Assembly (NCBI GenBank): GCA_016280895.1 | Contig: JAEEHM010000017.1 | Location: 1-54,675, forward strand | Direction of reading: 5' to 3' | DNA: 54,675 nt | From: Bacillota bacterium | GTDB taxonomy: Bacteria; Bacillota_I; Bacilli_A; ML615J-28; CAG-698 | In this document: positions 26,114 to 34,111 of the stretch, piece after piece | Position numbering within the stretch: position 1 is the stretch's first letter | Layout: each line of letters begins with the position of its first letter | The notes under the pieces: model-generated | Seen by the model: the letters and a program-made list of their open reading frames with translations, nothing else | Databases searched by the model: none | What the model was told of the DNA's origin: nothing | Program-made: the position numbers and the translations under genes

Positions 26114-27421
26114 CTATTCCCACTCTGCTTTTAAATCATAGAAATCAGCATCAATTATTCTAACCTTCTTAAAAGTAGAAATAATATCTTGATTATATAT
26201 GTGCTTGTTATCAATTATTACCATTCCATCAATATCATCAGGCGCAAATGCGTAAGTTCTTCCATAGAATTTATCTTCTTCACTATCATATTTTTCAATT
26301 ACACAATCATATGATTTACCAATCATTTCTCTATTTAAAGAAAATGATATCCATCTTTGTTTATCCATCAAGATATTTAATCTTTCTTTTTTTATTCTTT
26401 CACTTACTTGACCACTCATTTCATAACTTAAAGTATCTTCTTCCCTTGAATAAGTGAAAGCACCTAAGTGATTGAATTTATATTCATCAATAAAATCTAA
26501 CAAGATCTTAAAATCTTTTTCACTTTCATGAGGGAAACCAACCATCATAGTAGTACGTAATATTGCGTTTGGAATTTCGTCTTTAATTTTAGTAAGTAAG
26601 TTTTTGATTGAAGCTAAATCGCCAACTCTTTTCATATATTTTAATATCTTATCAGATGCATGTTGTAAAGGAATATCAAAATAAGGAATGATTTTATCAT
26701 TTTCTTTAATCAATTGAATTAAATCATCCTTGATTTCACTTGGATATAGATATAATAATCTAAACCACTTAACTCCATCGATTGTAATCAACTTTTTCAA
26801 AAGCGATGTTAGATTTGTTTTTAGATCATAACCATAAGCACTAGTGTCTTGGCTTATCAAACAAATCTCACTTCTTCCTTCTTTTGCATATTTTTTAACT
26901 TCTTCTACAATTTCTTCTTCGCTTCTGCTCTTTAATTTTCCTCTAATTAAAGGGATTGCGCAATATGCACAGCGATGCAAGCAGCCATCCGCAATTCTTA
27001 CATATGCCATATGAGGAGGAGTTGATATTAATCTAGAATCCATCTTTAAATATTCTTTAGCTAAAGAATCATCTCTTAGGTATTTTTTAATAATATCACC
27101 AAAGCGATAATAATCCTTAATAGGAATCCATTCATCAACTTCCTTTATTTCTTTCTTTAATTCTTCTAAGTATCTTTCAACCAAGCATCCGCAAACAATA
27201 ATCTTTTTTCCATCTTTTTTAAAATCTAAAGCGTCAAAGATTGTGTTGATTGCTTCTTCTTTAGCACTTGTGATAAAACCACAAGTATTGATAATAATGA
27301 TATCAGCTTCTGCCATCTCATCTACTATTTCTACTTCAGACTTCTTTAGCATGCCTAATATCATTTCACTATCTACTAAATTTTTCTCACAGCCTAGTGA
27401 TACGAGTGCTATTTTTTTCAT
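26114..27421 (-). CDS. rimO: Ribosomal protein S12 methylthiotransferase RimO
   Basis: Radical-SAM enzyme that adds a methylthio group to an Asp of ribosomal protein S12. The 435-residue protein has all three RimO regions: the N-terminal UPF0004 domain (KKIALVSLGCEKNLVDSE, NTCGFI, VCGCLVERY) supplying the second iron-sulfur cluster, the radical SAM motif CLHRCAYCAIP (about 146-156), and a C-terminal TRAM domain with FYGRTYAFAPDDIDG. It is the last gene of a five-gene unit with methyltransferase, nucleotidyltransferase, PqqD-like and S24/S26 genes; 7 nt separate it from the peptidase gene. The start ATG has only a weak ribosome site (GTAG), suggesting coupling. Confidence 0.93.
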   Translation of the reverse strand: MKKIALVSLGCEKNLVDSEMILGMLKKSEVEIVDEMAEADIIIINTCGFITSAKEEAINTIFDALDFKKDGKKIIVCGCLVERYLEELKKEIKEVDEWIPIKDYYRFGDIIKKYLRDDSLAKEYLKMDSRLISTPPHMAYVRIADGCLHRCAYCAIPLIRGKLKSRSEEEIVEEVKKYAKEGRSEICLISQDTSAYGYDLKTNLTSLLKKLITIDGVKWFRLLYLYPSEIKDDLIQLIKENDKIIPYFDIPLQHASDKILKYMKRVGDLASIKNLLTKIKDEIPNAILRTTMMVGFPHESEKDFKILLDFIDEYKFNHLGAFTYSREEDTLSYEMSGQVSERIKKERLNILMDKQRWISFSLNREMIGKSYDCVIEKYDSEEDKFYGRTYAFAPDDIDGMVIIDNKHIYNQDIISTFKKVRIIDADFYDLKAEWE

Positions 27422-27428
27422 ATTCTAC

Positions 27429-27896
27429 CTACTTAAATAATATGTGTTTTATTAATCTCAATGGTTTTAATAAATAATATTTAATTCTTCTTAAAGGTCT
27501 AAAGAATACTCTTAGATGATAATATACTCTATACCAAAAAGCAGTAATTGGTATATATTTCTCTTTTCGATAAAAACCATCTAATATAGCTAATATATCA
27601 TCTTGAGTAATATCATATTCTTTTTGAAATAAATTATCACCACAGATAATTAAACTTCCATCTTTTTTTATTTTTATAATTCTATGCAAAACATATTTAT
27701 TTGTGCTTCTTCTTTTATATAAAACACAATCATATTTTCTTAATTCCCTATCTTTTTTCTTTAACACAATCGAGTCAATGCCACTCCTAATCATAGGACG
27801 CATGCTTGTACCCTCAGTAGTGCCAACATAGATGCCAAATTTATCTAAAGCATCAAGATATGGATCTTTATAATCATCATTCTTCAAGGATTCCAT
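27429..27896 (-). CDS. S24/S26-family (SipW-like) peptidase
   Basis: A 155-residue protein with the signal-peptidase-like nucleophile motif EGTSMRPMIRSG (Ser31) and, 40 residues on, KYVLHRIIKI where His71 takes the place of the Lys of typical bacterial enzymes. This Ser-His arrangement matches ER-type/SipW-like signal peptidases. A CGDNLFQKE segment (about 85-93) corresponds to the GDN box. The C-terminus is basic with a possible membrane-associated segment. Its start overlaps the end of the PqqD-like gene by 20 nt, so the two are translationally linked. A processing role on a peptide partner of the PqqD-like protein is inference. Confidence 0.78.
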   Translation of the reverse strand: MESLKNDDYKDPYLDALDKFGIYVGTTEGTSMRPMIRSGIDSIVLKKKDRELRKYDCVLYKRRSTNKYVLHRIIKIKKDGSLIICGDNLFQKEYDITQDDILAILDGFYRKEKYIPITAFWYRVYYHLRVFFRPLRRIKYYLLKPLRLIKHILFK

Positions 27897-28161
27897 TATC
27901 TTCTAGTACCTTCAAAAAATTATTAATGTCATCTCTTGCTGTTTCAGCATCAATATTGTAGATTTCCATCATCTTTTCAACAAGTTCATCTAAGCTATGA
28001 TATTGTAATACTAATTTCCAAAGACTAGCACCGCTTTCATTTAAACTAATCATACCATTAAACTTACTTGCTTTTCCAACAGCAACTACAATATAATTAT
28101 CACCAATTTGACGAAGCATAAAGCCTTCTTTGATTTTATATGTTTTTTCCATATTATGCAC
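27877..28161 (-). CDS. PqqD-family protein (peptide-binding RRE-like)
   Basis: A 94-residue protein of the PqqD family. The fold is indicated by KIKEGFMLRQIGDNYIVV (beta hairpin), then MISLNESGASLWKLV, and helices with DELVEKMMEIYNIDAETARDDINNFLKVLEDNGIL. PqqD-like domains recognise leader peptides of ribosomally made modified peptides and present them to enzymes. It ends with TGA inside the peptidase gene (20-nt overlap) and begins within the last 8 nt of the nucleotidyltransferase gene. AGGTG precedes the start. No precursor peptide gene was found next to it. Confidence 0.88.
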   Translation of the reverse strand: MHNMEKTYKIKEGFMLRQIGDNYIVVAVGKASKFNGMISLNESGASLWKLVLQYHSLDELVEKMMEIYNIDAETARDDINNFLKVLEDNGILEE

Positions 28162-29344
28162 CTACATCCTCATGTACTTTCTTATTTTTTTCAATATCAG
28201 CATCACTTGCATTTTTTGTAGTAGCCAGTTCTGCATCAATGTTCTTGTTTTTCTTAAAAATAAACTTCAATAATCTCGTGAAATAAAACCAAGGAAGTAA
28301 TATTTTCCATTTCTTCAAACTTGGATTTCTTCCCACCATTACTGAATAAGGTGGAAAAGCACGATTCAACAAATATTTAAATTTATTAGCTTTAATGCTT
28401 TTATAAGTTGCTTCACCCATCAATTTATTTAAGACACTATGACTAACAGTACCATATGTACCACTTTCAATAATAAAGTCTCCCATTAAATTGATTGTTT
28501 CTAAATCTTCTTCATTTATTTTTTCTTCACTAAGCCAGCATTTAGCTAGTTTTTTAAGATTAGATTCAAATTTATTTAATCCTAGTTTTTCTAATTCAGT
28601 ATCAATATAATTGTAATCTAAACTATTCTCATATGCATTTAGATAAATATATTCATCAATTACATTTCTAATGCCCATTCCTCCATTAGAAAAATGTTTG
28701 GCAGCATGAGCAATCATATAAATATAATAATCTTCTTGCGAAAATACATATTCAAAATTACTATTTTCCTTTAAATGTAATCTTTTAAAGAAATCTTTAT
28801 AATATACATGATAGCTGTAACATTCATTCATTAAATCACGATGCATTTCTACATTCATAAAAGGAACTTTCATATAAGCATCATGATTTCCTATTAAATA
28901 TGATTCTACATCATATCCTAAGTCTATCATCATTTTTTTGATTTCCTTTGATTTTTCTTTATCAATATAAATATCAATATCAGCCATAGATCGCATATCA
29001 TATGATGGATACATATATTTGATTACAGATCCTTTTAAAATGGCATATCTAATACTTCTTTTTTCTAATTCTTCTTTTAATATTTCCATTTCACATTCTT
29101 GAGTAGCTGATTTGCTTAATTCTAACTTGTTTGCTTTATTTAATGCTTCAATTATTTTAGAATCAATATTTAAAGAAGTATTCTTATCAATATATTTCAT
29201 CAATGCATAATAAAGAATATTAGTTAAAGAATGAAATTTTGCTATTTTATATAATGCATCAAAATTAGGATTATCCAATTTTACATCTTCATTTATCAAT
29301 AATAGCCTAATTAATGATATTAAATCACTTGCGTTTTTATCCAT
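28154..29344 (-). CDS. Nucleotidyltransferase-family protein (NTP_transf_5)
   Basis: A 396-residue protein of the uncharacterised nucleotidyltransferase family seen beside PqqD-like proteins and in lasso-peptide-type clusters. The signature is YAILKGSVIKYMYPSYDMRS followed by MADIDIYID with the metal-binding DxD (about residues 98-128). A His-rich segment EMHRDLMNECYSYHVYY follows. The C-terminal region ends with basic and Lys/Asp-rich residues after a possible amphipathic segment. It presumably transfers a nucleotide to an acceptor; the acceptor is not known. AGAAGGG precedes ATG 29344; it overlaps the PqqD-like gene by 8 nt. Confidence 0.8.
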   Translation of the reverse strand: MDKNASDLISLIRLLLINEDVKLDNPNFDALYKIAKFHSLTNILYYALMKYIDKNTSLNIDSKIIEALNKANKLELSKSATQECEMEILKEELEKRSIRYAILKGSVIKYMYPSYDMRSMADIDIYIDKEKSKEIKKMMIDLGYDVESYLIGNHDAYMKVPFMNVEMHRDLMNECYSYHVYYKDFFKRLHLKENSNFEYVFSQEDYYIYMIAHAAKHFSNGGMGIRNVIDEYIYLNAYENSLDYNYIDTELEKLGLNKFESNLKKLAKCWLSEEKINEEDLETINLMGDFIIESGTYGTVSHSVLNKLMGEATYKSIKANKFKYLLNRAFPPYSVMVGRNPSLKKWKILLPWFYFTRLLKFIFKKNKNIDAELATTKNASDADIEKNKKVHEDVGA

Positions 29345-29356
29345 AAAATTTCCCTT

Positions 29357-30217
29357 CTATAAATATAATTTTATTGTTTTTTCTATCCAATAGCGCCAAA
29401 CGATGTTTTTGTGCTTTTCTTCGATTGTTTTTATTCTCTTATATGCTTCCATTGCATCACTGACATCATGATATATATCAACAAATAAATAATCAATATC
29501 ACTTAAATCTTGATTTAAATATTCATAAGCATCCATATTGATTATTTCAATCTTATCTTGAATATTCTTTTCAAATTTAGTTAATATTTCTTTTTTGAAT
29601 AAAGAAATAACATCCTTATCAAGTTCAATTATTCTTACCTTTTTTACATTATCTTTGATAGCACACATATATGCGAAATAGCCCATGCCAAGGCCTAGGG
29701 TGCAAACATTGCCAAATGCGTCATCAATATCTTTCTTCATCGTATTGATTTCATTGGGTGTGATGCTCATCCATAAACGATCATTTTGATAGATACTATC
29801 ATATTTGAAGATTTTGTTGAAATAGCCAATTCTTGGAATTATTTTACCATCTATTTTTTTCATATCATCGCATACAAATAATTGATATGCTTTATAATGG
29901 TCTATTTTGATTTGCCAGTTATGATATTTCTTATAATTTAGCTTGATATTTTGATAGTATGGATTATTAACATATTTAGTTTCATCTTCTAATATAAGCA
30001 TATTTTTGATATATTCATTATATAAGATTTTGTCTTCCATATTATCATTGATATCAAGGCCTAGGTAAGTTGCTAAAAAAATTGCGACTGCTTCAGTTTC
30101 GGATAAGCCAAGGCTTGTAATTTTCTTTACTTCATCTTCTTTTATCATATCACTATAATCGTTTAAATATAGTGATAATAATCTTAATATTCTTTGATTG
30201 TATTTTTCTACTTCCAT
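29357..30217 (-). CDS. Spermidine synthase-like SAM-binding methyltransferase-fold protein
   Basis: A Rossmann-fold protein with VCTLGLGMGYFAYMCA (glycine-rich SAM loop), VRIIELDKDVISLF (acidic residue binding the ribose) and INMDAYEYLNQDLSDIDYLFVDIYHD, in the order found in spermidine synthase-like methyltransferases. The N-terminal 150 residues are helical and unrecognised. I choose ATG 30217 (286 residues). An ATG at 30244 would add nine residues, but TATAAT at 30230-30225 lies within that stretch and leaves only 7 nt to ATG 30217, so the transcript may be nearly leaderless. It is the first gene of the operon that continues with nucleotidyltransferase, PqqD-like, S24/S26 and rimO. Confidence 0.7.
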   Translation of the reverse strand: MEVEKYNQRILRLLSLYLNDYSDMIKEDEVKKITSLGLSETEAVAIFLATYLGLDINDNMEDKILYNEYIKNMLILEDETKYVNNPYYQNIKLNYKKYHNWQIKIDHYKAYQLFVCDDMKKIDGKIIPRIGYFNKIFKYDSIYQNDRLWMSITPNEINTMKKDIDDAFGNVCTLGLGMGYFAYMCAIKDNVKKVRIIELDKDVISLFKKEILTKFEKNIQDKIEIINMDAYEYLNQDLSDIDYLFVDIYHDVSDAMEAYKRIKTIEEKHKNIVWRYWIEKTIKLYL

Positions 30218-30261: not shown

Positions 30262-30289
30262 TAAATAAAAGCTGATATAAATATCAGCT
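30262..30289 (-). terminator. Terminator of the second YwaF-like gene
   Basis: Perfect 8-bp stem AGCTGATA / TATCAGCT with a TTTA loop (30289-30270), followed by TTTATTTATATT on the minus strand. Confidence 0.8.
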
Positions 30290-30295
30290 AATATT

Positions 30296-31135
30296 TTATG
30301 CATTTTGTTTTGCACGTTTTTTTGATGTTTGTGCTAAGCTTGCACCTATCAATCTAATTAATCTTACACTGCCCCAAATAGCACTAATTCCTAAGAAGAA
30401 TGCTAAGAAATAGCAGAATAAGAATACAAGATATGGCACCTTAAGATAAATAATTGAAAGTATTGGTAATGAACAATTATAATATGGTGAAATATAGAAC
30501 ATATTTAATGATTGTCCATATACATTTAATTCTGTACTGAAATATAATTTATATGAAACAATATTTCCAATTAATGCGAATGCAACAATTACCAAGAATA
30601 CAATAAATCCTGGGAATAAATCTTTGAAATAATTATCAGTATAATTTCTAGATCTTTGTAAGTAAATACCCATTACTACCATTGATGAATGCCAAAGCAT
30701 TGTATGAATTAGAATTGTAACATATGATGTGCCGAAGCAATCGCCCGGATAAGTCATAACTGCTAGTCCAGCAATTAAACCAAAGAATGCTAAGAATTTA
30801 TATAACGCTTCTTTTACTTTTCCTTCTTTTAATAATGGCGCAAAAAATGCTACAAACATCGGTACAGAACAGAATTGGTATGGGAATGCATGCCATTGAT
30901 AATATCCTGCATCTAAAGTATAGAAGATTTGTTTGTAGATTTCTGCTATCATCAAAATAGTTCCAATAGTAAATACTACAACATTATCTTTCTTTCGATC
31001 GTGCTTGCTAGCAACGAATTTACACAATATAATTGTGACTATAATCATAATTGCGACCCACATCAAATGGTACCAACCATATGATACTGGTCTTTCACCT
31101 GGCCATAGCCAGTTTGTAACTAAATTTATTAACAT
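30296..31135 (-). CDS. YwaF/TMEM164-family integral membrane protein (second copy)
   Basis: A 279-residue protein with about seven membrane helices. The motif AFPYQFCSVPMFVAFFAPLL (around residues 82-101) parallels LHFCS of the paralogue at 1542-2549, with Glu and Lys before it (EIYKQIFY) and a conserved His in LIHTMLWH further on. The TIGR02206/YwaF family and its relative TMEM164 share the conserved Cys; an acyltransferase function is inference. AGAGGATATAAAA precedes ATG 31135. It is monocistronic with its own terminator, lying between the peptidase-linked operon and the amidase gene. Confidence 0.75.
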   Translation of the reverse strand: MLINLVTNWLWPGERPVSYGWYHLMWVAIMIIVTIILCKFVASKHDRKKDNVVVFTIGTILMIAEIYKQIFYTLDAGYYQWHAFPYQFCSVPMFVAFFAPLLKEGKVKEALYKFLAFFGLIAGLAVMTYPGDCFGTSYVTILIHTMLWHSSMVVMGIYLQRSRNYTDNYFKDLFPGFIVFLVIVAFALIGNIVSYKLYFSTELNVYGQSLNMFYISPYYNCSLPILSIIYLKVPYLVFLFCYFLAFFLGISAIWGSVRLIRLIGASLAQTSKKRAKQNA

Positions 31136-31264: not shown

Positions 31265-34111
31265 CTATTCATTTAATGAAAAATGTCCCTTATTCCAAAT
31301 TACTGATGAAGCATATGTACCACTCCATTGTTCCCAAGTAGTTGTACCAGGAATAACAGAATATAATGTGATAGTCTTAGATGTTGAACCTAATGAAACA
31401 GTTACATCATAACTTACAGTTGTAGTGATTTCTGGGGCCTTAACTACACGTCCATCATTACCGATGATTGTTGGATTATTAGATTTGAAAGAAATAGTAA
31501 CATCTTTATATTCTGTTTGAAGAGTATATTCTAAATTAACCATTTCCATAAATCTTGGCCAAATTTCACCAGACAAGAATACTTGTGCACAGTTCTTACC
31601 ACTGAATGTATTATGCATTTGTACTCTTGTAGTATCAATGTTATTTCTTACACAAATGTCAGCTACTAATTTAGCAGTTCTTTGCCATGTATCATAGCTA
31701 TCATCTGATGTATTAACGTTCATTTCAATACCGATTGAGTTATTGTTTCCACCATGAGATGAAATCTTACCATAAGATGAACTCCACCAAGTAAGCCCCA
31801 TATAATACTTACCATTTTCAATCTTCCAAGTAGGTCCTAAATATGTAAGTAATGCATCTGTAGTTGGAGTTGAGCCTGTATCAGGAACAACGATTGAAGT
31901 TGCAGTGCCATTACATGCATAAACATAGCCGCTTCCTTTTGGAACAATTGTAAACTTAGGTTTAACGCCTTCTGTTGCAGCAACGCCTGTATCGTACCAA
32001 GTAAATGTAGAGCCTGTACCATCACCTGCATGATAAGCAATATATTTTTCAGGAACAACGCCCCATACTAAATCATTACCTACTGTATAGTGAATTGATG
32101 TTTCACCACTACTCATACCAGATGCAATACTTTCTGAAGTACCAGTTAATGTTGCAGTATCATGAACACATACAAATTCAACTGTATCTACAGAACGTCT
32201 TGATTTATGGTTGTTAGGATTTCCTTCAGATGTAGCATAATATTTTTCATTAATTACAAGTGGTGTAGCTAAGAATCTATTAACTGAACCATAAGTTGCT
32301 TTATAATATCTTTCTCTACCATCATTATATAAGCAAGCATTACCAATATCAACAACAGCAAAGTTGTTTTCCGCAATTAATTTAATTACTTCATCAACCT
32401 TATTAGCTGTATTTAAGTTATTAACTGTGAAGCCTACATCAAGTTTAGTAGAACCAACTGCAATAGTAACTACAGCATTTCCTTCTTTAAGGGCTTTTAC
32501 TGTACCACTAGCATCTACTGTTAAAACACTTGAATCACTGCTTGTATAAGTGATATTGCCACTTAAAGCACCAATAAGTGTAGGTTGTAATTGGTATGTT
32601 TCATTAATAGCTAAAACACCATCAAAGCCTGATTTGAATGTAATATCAATTGACGAAATTGAATTTACAGTAATTTCAAATTTCTTCACAAACTTACCAA
32701 CATAATCCTGAACTGTGATAGTTGCTGTACCAGCATTAACAGCTGTTATCTTACCAGTATTTGTGATATCAACAATATCTTTATTAGATGTTGCATATAA
32801 TACTTGTTTGAAATAAGCATCTGATGGGCTAACACTAGCAGTAATTTGAAGAACATCACCAGTTGTAATTGTAGTATCAAAATCATTAATATTAAGTGCT
32901 GTAACTGGATTTAATTCATGCCATGATGCATAAACATTTGTAGTACCAATAATTGTACTTGGTCCAGATGTAACAGCATTACCATCTTTATCAACCCAAC
33001 CTAAGAATTCATTACCTAATTTAGTTGGAGTAGGGAATACTACAGCATCACCTTGTTTATAAACAATCTTATCGACACTTACATTTTGCTTGTAGAATTT
33101 AACAGCAACAGGTTTGCTTTGACTTGCTTGTTTGATATTATCAAAGAATACGACATCACCAATTTCTACAAGTTCAACTTGTGGATGAACGGCAGCAAAA
33201 GATTTATAAGAATTAGAAATTGTTAATACATATTCAGCACCTGATGGCCATTTAGAACTACCAGATTTTAAGATATTAATAACTTCATAATACTTAGTTT
33301 CACTGTTCTTACCGATATAAATACGATCTGAGAATGTAGCAGTAGGATCTGAAGATTGAGTACTCATGAAAATATCACTAGCATAAGCACCACCCCAGAA
33401 ATTACCATTATATGAAGTTACATTAATAATAGCATTAGCACCACTTGCTTCATATAATTCTTTACAAGCTCCACCATTGAAGTTCAATACATATTGATTA
33501 GGAGCCTTAGTAATTTTAAGCACAAATTCAGCTTTAATGTTATCAGCTTTTGCAGTAATAACAACTGTACCTGCAACTTTAGCAGTAACTAAACCATTTT
33601 GATCAACACTAGCTAAAGTATTATCTAATGATTCCCATGTAAAAGTTGTAGTACTATTATCAGAAATAGTAGCTGTCAATTGAAGAGTTTCATTAGTATA
33701 AACTTCTTTTGCATCACCTTCAGCTGAAATAGTGATTGTTGGAAGTTCTTTTACTTCTACAGTCAATGTTATTTTATTATCAGAATAATCTTTTAAATAA
33801 GCAGTAATAGTAGCATTACCTGCATTTAAAGCATTAATTTTACCATTTTCTACTTTTGCGACATTTTCATCACTTGATTCATAAATGATATCAAGAGCCA
33901 CTTCAGAATCATTAATTATAGCACTAATCTTTTCATTAGATCCAGCTAACAATTCATAATTCTGTTTTGAAATAGCAAGACTTGGAGTTTTCTTATTATC
34001 TTCTCCTTGTTCTTCTTTTCCTCCGTTTTCTTCTTCCTTACCACAAGCTAGCGCAAATACGCTTAAGAATAAGAATAAGAAAACAAATAAGAATTTCATA
34101 ATTTTATTCAT
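31265..34111 (-). CDS. Lipoprotein with Ig-like (BIG2) domains and N-acetylmuramoyl-L-alanine amidase domain
   Basis: A 948-residue cell-surface lipoprotein. The signal peptide ends in the lipobox FALAC (Cys about residue 23). A Gly/Glu-rich linker follows, then bacterial Ig-like 2 domains (about 45-125 and 130-205, with NAGNATITAYLKD and VAGTVVITAKAD), a middle domain of about 200 residues ending in an InlB-type GWVDKDGNAVTSGP segment, two more BIG2 units (about 400-565), and an amidase_2 domain (about 600-850) with FVCVHDTATLTGT, SIHYTVGNDLVW, YHAGDGTG, NSIGIEMNV and the late VQMHNTFSGKNC. It should cleave the amide bond between muramic acid and L-Ala in peptidoglycan. AGGAGGAAAAT precedes ATG 34111. 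Confidence 0.88.
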   Translation of the reverse strand: MNKIMKFLFVFLFLFLSVFALACGKEEENGGKEEQGEDNKKTPSLAISKQNYELLAGSNEKISAIINDSEVALDIIYESSDENVAKVENGKINALNAGNATITAYLKDYSDNKITLTVEVKELPTITISAEGDAKEVYTNETLQLTATISDNSTTTFTWESLDNTLASVDQNGLVTAKVAGTVVITAKADNIKAEFVLKITKAPNQYVLNFNGGACKELYEASGANAIINVTSYNGNFWGGAYASDIFMSTQSSDPTATFSDRIYIGKNSETKYYEVINILKSGSSKWPSGAEYVLTISNSYKSFAAVHPQVELVEIGDVVFFDNIKQASQSKPVAVKFYKQNVSVDKIVYKQGDAVVFPTPTKLGNEFLGWVDKDGNAVTSGPSTIIGTTNVYASWHELNPVTALNINDFDTTITTGDVLQITASVSPSDAYFKQVLYATSNKDIVDITNTGKITAVNAGTATITVQDYVGKFVKKFEITVNSISSIDITFKSGFDGVLAINETYQLQPTLIGALSGNITYTSSDSSVLTVDASGTVKALKEGNAVVTIAVGSTKLDVGFTVNNLNTANKVDEVIKLIAENNFAVVDIGNACLYNDGRERYYKATYGSVNRFLATPLVINEKYYATSEGNPNNHKSRRSVDTVEFVCVHDTATLTGTSESIASGMSSGETSIHYTVGNDLVWGVVPEKYIAYHAGDGTGSTFTWYDTGVAATEGVKPKFTIVPKGSGYVYACNGTATSIVVPDTGSTPTTDALLTYLGPTWKIENGKYYMGLTWWSSSYGKISSHGGNNNSIGIEMNVNTSDDSYDTWQRTAKLVADICVRNNIDTTRVQMHNTFSGKNCAQVFLSGEIWPRFMEMVNLEYTLQTEYKDVTISFKSNNPTIIGNDGRVVKAPEITTTVSYDVTVSLGSTSKTITLYSVIPGTTTWEQWSGTYASSVIWNKGHFSLNE

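Follow-up and report, generated by a model that had tools for sequence, protein, structure and literature searches.

Five tightly packed genes on contig JAEEHM010000017.1 of a Bacillota bacterium (GenBank assembly GCA_016280895.1) raise the question of whether they form a peptide-modification module and, if so, which of them belong to it and where its substrate is encoded. The window, meaning the whole stretch of 54,675 nucleotides that was analysed, holds them at 26114-30208 on the minus strand. In order of transcription they encode a methyltransferase, an NTP_transf_5 nucleotidyltransferase-like protein, a PqqD-like protein, a peptidase and RimO, and the successive junctions are a 12-nt gap, an 8-nt overlap, a 20-nt overlap and a 7-nt gap. 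The original prediction had described this co-directional layout, with spacers of 7-12 nt and overlaps of 8 and 20 nt, correctly, and had proposed a peptide-modification module. That proposal is borne out for the NTP_transf_5, PqqD-like and peptidase genes (27429-29344), which very probably form the tailoring and processing core of a pathway for a ribosomally synthesized and post-translationally modified peptide (RiPP), similar to the linear polyphosphorylated peptides (LPPs) and acting in trans. Gene content, conserved residues, co-occurrence among genomes and a leader/core pattern in the precursors, all directly observed, carry this reading. The features of the operon are as follows.

29357-30208 (alternative start 30244), minus strand: S-adenosylmethionine (SAM)-dependent methyltransferase, weakly spermidine-synthase-like (weak family matches)
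28154-29344, minus strand: NTP_transf_5 nucleotidyltransferase-like protein (LppN-like), 396 residues (PF14907)
27877-28161, minus strand: PqqD-like RiPP recognition element (RRE; LppB-like), 94 residues (PF05402)
27429-27896, minus strand: putative soluble Ser-His signal-peptidase-like leader peptidase (LppS-like), 155 residues (TIGR02228 resemblance)
26114-27421, minus strand: rimO, 30S S12 methylthiotransferase (TIGR01125)
30270-30289 (read 30289-30270), minus strand: terminator-like hairpin, from a consensus scan only, between the TMEM164-like gene upstream and the operon, which it would set apart

LPPs were described from the lppAKBSDN genes of Paenibacillus alginolyticus DSM5050 (Nat Commun, May 2026; PMC13381572). 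LppA is the precursor, LppK an HprK-like kinase, LppB a discrete RRE, LppS a SipW-like soluble peptidase, LppD an exporter and LppN a nucleotidyltransferase (NTP transferase) (PMC13381572). When lppK was lost in B. subtilis the peptide was no longer phosphorylated, and without lppS it kept its leader; no effect was shown for LppN, and cleavage by LppS, also seen in vitro, depended on LppB (PMC13381572). The three core genes of the window are counterparts of lppN, lppB and lppS, and the likeness extends to an HprK-like kinase and to short precursors whose N terminus keeps YxxPx[VI] and whose C terminus varies. It is this shared gene set (SpI-like peptidase, discrete RRE, HprK-like kinase and NTP transferase), together with the YxxP leader, that leads us to call the pathway LPP-like. 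Unlike the published system, the one described here is dispersed, its enzymes, its kinase and its precursors being spread over four or five contigs.

The NTP_transf_5 protein matches PF14907 with 157 bits (cut-off 31; E = 6e-46) and carries the motifs K104-G105-S and D122-I-D124, of which K104, G105, D122 and D124 are invariant in 12 relatives. Its AlphaFold model has a pLDDT of 90, with weak, partial nucleotidyltransferase matches only in Foldseek, and sequence-profile searches of the PDB with this protein and with the kinase gave no matches. The PqqD-like protein matches PF05402 with 64 bits (cut-off 23; E = 1e-17) and aligns gap-free to LppB (PDB 9x8z_B) over 55 residues, 14 of them identical. 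In the LppB structure D70 grips the YxxP tyrosine, and the proline sits between V35 and F74, with N33 (PMC13381572); N33, Y60, D70 and F74 of LppB are kept here as N41, Y68, D78 and F82, so that the protein appears from its sequence to be a discrete RRE of the YxxP-binding type. The peptidase misses the Pfam S24 cut-off; it shows a likeness to archaeal/SipW-type signal peptidase I, again at a score under the cut-off (TIGR02228, E = 1e-8). Its S31, H71 and D87 are invariant in 10 relatives, D87 being the probable counterpart of LppS D93 to judge from the GD(N) motif, and its sequence holds no transmembrane-like stretch. The peptidase model (pLDDT 86) finds type I signal peptidases and LexA as best Foldseek matches, with modest scores (E about 1e-3), and model and sequence together point to an SpI-like serine peptidase with a Ser-His-Asp triad.

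Relatives have an HprK/ScmC-like kinase along with the core, and the window's own genome encodes one HprK-like kinase, on contig C15 (46684-47376), with the P-loop SAPSGTGKST and an NDDKP motif. Its matches to ScmC and HprK are weak, the best in NCBIfam being ScmC (6.5e-7); the motifs make it the candidate LppK counterpart, encoded outside the operon. On the same contig the kinase gene is preceded by genes for three secreted proteins of 276, 755 and 1598 residues (L022:10554-18611), all with "TYSWFA" N termini; the two larger ones are near-identical at the N terminus.

The precursors, too, lie elsewhere. Clusters of three relatives (G018, G024 and G026) hold open reading frames (ORFs) of 41-43 residues with a KxYxxP N terminus, and a search of the window's own genome with one of these returned C84:10563 (E = 0.003) and a weak match at C87:5888 (E = 0.14). 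The C84 and C87 precursors encode MKKEYTKPTVIVEKFSEEEVITTSVLGSYDPNGVLNDPNAVPWNW and MKKEYEKPIVMIEKFDEDSKVTTNTSELNVPFDELLM, both clear candidates with a KKEYxKPxVxxxKF leader; a third peptide, MKKEYVKIKIEIYKFEDDITTTLSNVNQQDYDLLVEGLLND on C38, is without the proline and is a possible candidate only. The own-genome precursors, two clear and one possible, are 37-45 residues long, a count that comes from profile searches of a genome 84% complete and may therefore be incomplete. Compared with curated families the precursors gave no match, and such NCBIfam matches as they have below threshold all point to models of RiPP precursors. The original prediction saw no precursor nearby, which holds for the whole window, where there is no such ORF, but not for the genome, with its unlinked precursors on C84, C87 and perhaps C38. 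The window encodes the only PqqD-like protein detected in the genome and the sole PF14907 protein found there (a direct protein scan of the genome contigs for NTP_transf_5 gave no match), so any RRE-dependent precursor has only this PqqD-like protein to work with.

Fifteen precursor candidates align gap-free on an aromatic residue (position 0). All have K at -2 and Y, F or L at 0, 14 have P at +3, and I/V/L at +5 and +7, F/I/L at +10 and an acidic residue at +13/+14 follow; S stands at +19 in 11 of the 15, with nothing common beyond. The wider leader consensus is KxYxKPxIxIxxFxxEDIITxS, with F or L variants in a sister species. Two precursors of G019, a genome of the window's own genus, share an identical 24-residue leader, MKKEFKLPQIELVLINEEDIIKTS, which is followed by unrelated C termini, TTTNYEEIPYGG or GEVQWWPEGDPGLGA, and this combination is the leader/core signature of a RiPP. 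Among the 4365 short ORFs of the retrieved DNA, from loci that were not picked blindly, 13 carry the leader motif; the reversed sequences have none. Two G019 contigs (C37 and C82; L118:38-157 and L045:38-157) begin with the same precursor and continue into diverging secreted proteins, and two further contig ends (C96 and C103) bear the same leader, which suggests that a repeated leader/secreted-protein family broke the G019 assembly.

How far the arrangement is conserved was examined in 28 genomes of the same family, seven of which have PqqD-like proteins, and in more distant loci. The three core genes are kept together, often with overlaps, in G020, G024, G041, G042 and L100: they are contiguous in G020 and G024, have small overlaps in G041 and G042, which belong to another family of the same order, and are joined by the kinase in L100 (kinase-PqqD-peptidase-NTP_transf_5, contiguous). 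The core includes extra genes in G018 and G026, the peptidase and NTP_transf_5 are fused into one 518-residue protein in G019, and G016 keeps PqqD and peptidase together with NTP_transf_5 elsewhere. Eubacterium callanderi (L099) has the order precursor-kinase-PqqD-ABC exporter (MsbA-like)-NTP_transf_5. The five-gene arrangement was seen, among the genomes examined, in the window's genome alone; co-occurrence thus fails for the five-gene unit of the original prediction and holds for the three-gene core. The module is enlarged in G018 and G026, where it includes a SPASM radical SAM protein, two HprK-like kinases and two S26 peptidases (L016:9826-12120 and L014:7582-9879), and G016 has a radical SAM-kinase-PqqD-S26 set alone.

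Co-occurrence in the 28 genomes can be put in figures, with p values that treat the genomes as independent when some of them are related. The kinase is found in all seven PqqD genomes versus 1 of the 21 others (p = 7e-6), NTP_transf_5 in all seven versus 2 of 21 (p = 3e-5), and a precursor at E<=1e-3 in all seven versus none of 21. Leaving out the four genomes whose peptides went into the precursor model gives the fair figure for the precursor, 3/3 versus 0/21 (p = 5e-4). A borderline match in G023 (0.00126) was left uncounted because it lies inside a 228-residue reading frame of an unrelated protein.

Homology with characterized systems suggests each chemical step, the order of steps and a place of action. 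The PqqD-like protein would bind the KKEYxKP leader of the precursors on C84, C87 and perhaps C38, and the C15 kinase would phosphorylate the peptide, the likeliest site being the conserved Ser/Thr some 19 residues past the leader Tyr. NTP_transf_5 could then decorate the phosphate further with a nucleotidyl or sugar-phosphate group; in pseudomycoidin an NTP transferase of homologous type attaches hexoses to phosphoserine (PMC8498205). The Ser-His peptidase would remove the leader from a substrate presented by the PqqD-like protein. The precursors are predicted to be co-expressed with large secreted proteins (repeat proteins, glycoside hydrolase family 18 (GH18)/amidase proteins and a nuclease), and the product therefore probably acts outside the cell.

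Several observations weigh against an LPP-like pathway. The operon holds no precursor, kinase or exporter, and its parts would have to cooperate across contigs. The RRE profile matches the lasso B1 protein TfuB1 (3.5e-9) better than LppB (1.5e-4), and even for the LPP system studied no role of LppN has been established (PMC13381572). The leaders have the YxKPx[VI] part but xIxxFxxEDIIT in place of HQxIxFET, and so depart from the LPP consensus YxxPxVLxHQxIxFETxxS; the conserved Ser lies at Tyr+19 versus Tyr+18 in LPPs, and the G019 leaders have F or L instead of Y. An MsbA-like exporter was sought in the operon and its neighbours, and none was found there. Because of the divergent leader and the operon's lack of an exporter, we class the system as an LPP-like variant and not as an LPP.

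Among the alternatives, one that we consider very unlikely takes the core for what is left of the tailoring genes in a phosphorylated lasso peptide cluster of the paeninodin/pseudomycoidin type. Clusters of that type do share the HprK-like kinase, the NTP transferase and a PqqD-like B1 protein, and the Butyrivibrio plasmid pNP243 bears one near a PqqD-S24/S26 pair. However, the window's genome, at 84% completeness, gave no match to lasso B2 (PF13471), in place of which there is an SpI-like peptidase; the same-family loci that were retrieved show no macrolactam cyclase (Asn synthetase-like), the genome as a whole not having been searched for one; and the leaders read YxKP, whereas Bacillota lasso precursors typically have WxxP. 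On pNP243 of Butyrivibrio fibrisolvens a 57-residue MKKAYVKPEL... peptide (L080:20269-20442) precedes the PqqD-S24/S26 pair, and a WxTP lasso-type precursor (L080:9597-9746) is clustered with B2, cyclase, an HprK-like protein and NTP transferases, so both RiPP types occur on this plasmid. The SynChlorMet (TIGR04248-TIGR04251) and HPr-rel-A (TIGR04352, TIGR04353) systems likewise pair a PqqD-like protein with a ScmC/HprK-related protein, but all matches to them are far under the curated cut-offs, and a SPASM radical SAM protein, present in G016, G018 and G026, is lacking in the window operon.

There is also a slim chance that the S26 protein serves as a signal peptidase of the SipW kind, acting on exported TasA-like proteins, and that its neighbours have another function. 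The resemblance to SipW and archaeal signal peptidase I would fit this, as would the secreted TYSWFA proteins beside the kinase gene, but the peptidase is without a transmembrane segment, its gene overlaps the PqqD gene by 20 nt, its G019 homologue is fused to NTP_transf_5, and the published LppS, a protein of the same kind, cleaves leaders (PMC13381572). That all five genes, RimO included, work as one peptide-modification operon deserves almost no credence: direction, short gaps and overlaps speak for it, as does a slight excess of both extra genes in the module-bearing genomes of the 28 (RimO p = 0.08, methyltransferase p = 0.04), but neither rimO nor the methyltransferase gene adjoins the core in any other genome examined. 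A defence system was also considered, and PADLOC gave no match.

Since core loci in relatives hold neither gene, both are taken to be passengers. RimO matches TIGR01125 with 476 bits (cut-off 357), with domains PF00919 (UPF0004), PF04055 (radical SAM) and PF18693 (TRAM); it is a full equivalog in which no difference from the family was found, and, there being no second RimO (two further homologues are MiaB and MtaB), its S12 role is needed here. At E<=1e-100 rimO occurs in other gene settings in G001, G002, G019, G020, G021, G023 and G024. PqqD is absent from 4 of the 8 rimO-bearing genomes (G001, G002, G021 and G023), 3 of the 7 PqqD genomes are without rimO at that threshold, and in G019, G020 and G024 rimO and the module are on different contigs. 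The methyltransferase has a weak family match (Spermine_synth, 25.3 bits; cut-off 22.9), and its homologues in G019, G020 and G021 lie on contigs other than the module's, beside a second methyltransferase-like gene, and it is rejected as a module part. We judge rimO to encode an ordinary S12 methylthiotransferase placed last in the operon by chance and the methyltransferase to be unrelated, both being bystanders on a shared transcript. The suggestion that RimO, with its normal motifs, may be a passenger has thus stood up; a functional link between RimO and the PqqD-like protein has no support and is rejected on phylogenetic profile and neighbourhood, each occurring without the other. In G002, a 71-residue Cys-rich peptide (MENYVTPDMAVYEG...) and an apparent radical SAM maturase gene lie just downstream of rimO (L082:3-953), a RiPP-like cassette of another kind than the window's.

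Returning to the LPP-like pathway, its discoverers state the role of LPPs as unknown, and the published LPPs lie near capsule loci (PMC13381572), whereas the precursors described here adjoin genes for secreted repeat proteins and GH18/amidase proteins. Most sit directly before a secreted protein gene, usually that of a repeat protein in relatives: the C87 precursor is 9 nt before the gene of an 869-residue secreted protein, the C38 candidate overlaps a secreted Endonuclease I protein gene by 8 nt, and the junctions are overlaps of 4 and 8 nt in G018 and 4 nt in G024, and gaps of 5 and 9 nt in G026 and 1 to 41 nt in G019. The C84 precursor lies 11 nt after a secreted Big_2 protein gene, and G016 is an exception, with two tandem precursors among housekeeping genes. 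Several of the secreted proteins share an N-terminal module (GAxxRT...GLRF), present in 5 of 7 module genomes versus 1 of 21 others, and in the window's own genome (C87), G019, G024 and G026 (C25) GH18 or GH18-Amidase_2 proteins come after such proteins; the enzyme genes of G018, G020 and G026 (C13) are likewise flanked by GH18 proteins.

These neighbourhoods offer a concrete, testable hint to LPP function. We suggest, tentatively and as a rather doubtful extension, that LPP-like peptides are made to work with the secreted protein whose gene follows, as RRE-guided, phosphate-decorated partners that accompany an exported GH18/amidase repeat-protein machine, tag it or link it to the surface, one central enzyme set serving the scattered precursors. 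Here an LPP-type family is found in a setting other than capsule loci of the Paenibacillus type and combines a single enzyme set with several precursors not linked to it, and precursors that act in trans in this way are missed by cluster-based mining.

Two neighbours of the operon may be noted. A TMEM164-like membrane protein gene (30296-31135) lies directly upstream, and membrane protein genes of similar appearance are also found upstream of the possible C38 precursor (L116:3217-4765). Nearby (31265-34111) the window encodes a lipoprotein with four Big_2 domains and one Amidase_2 domain, the amidase part of which resembles the precursor-coupled GH18-amidase proteins elsewhere.

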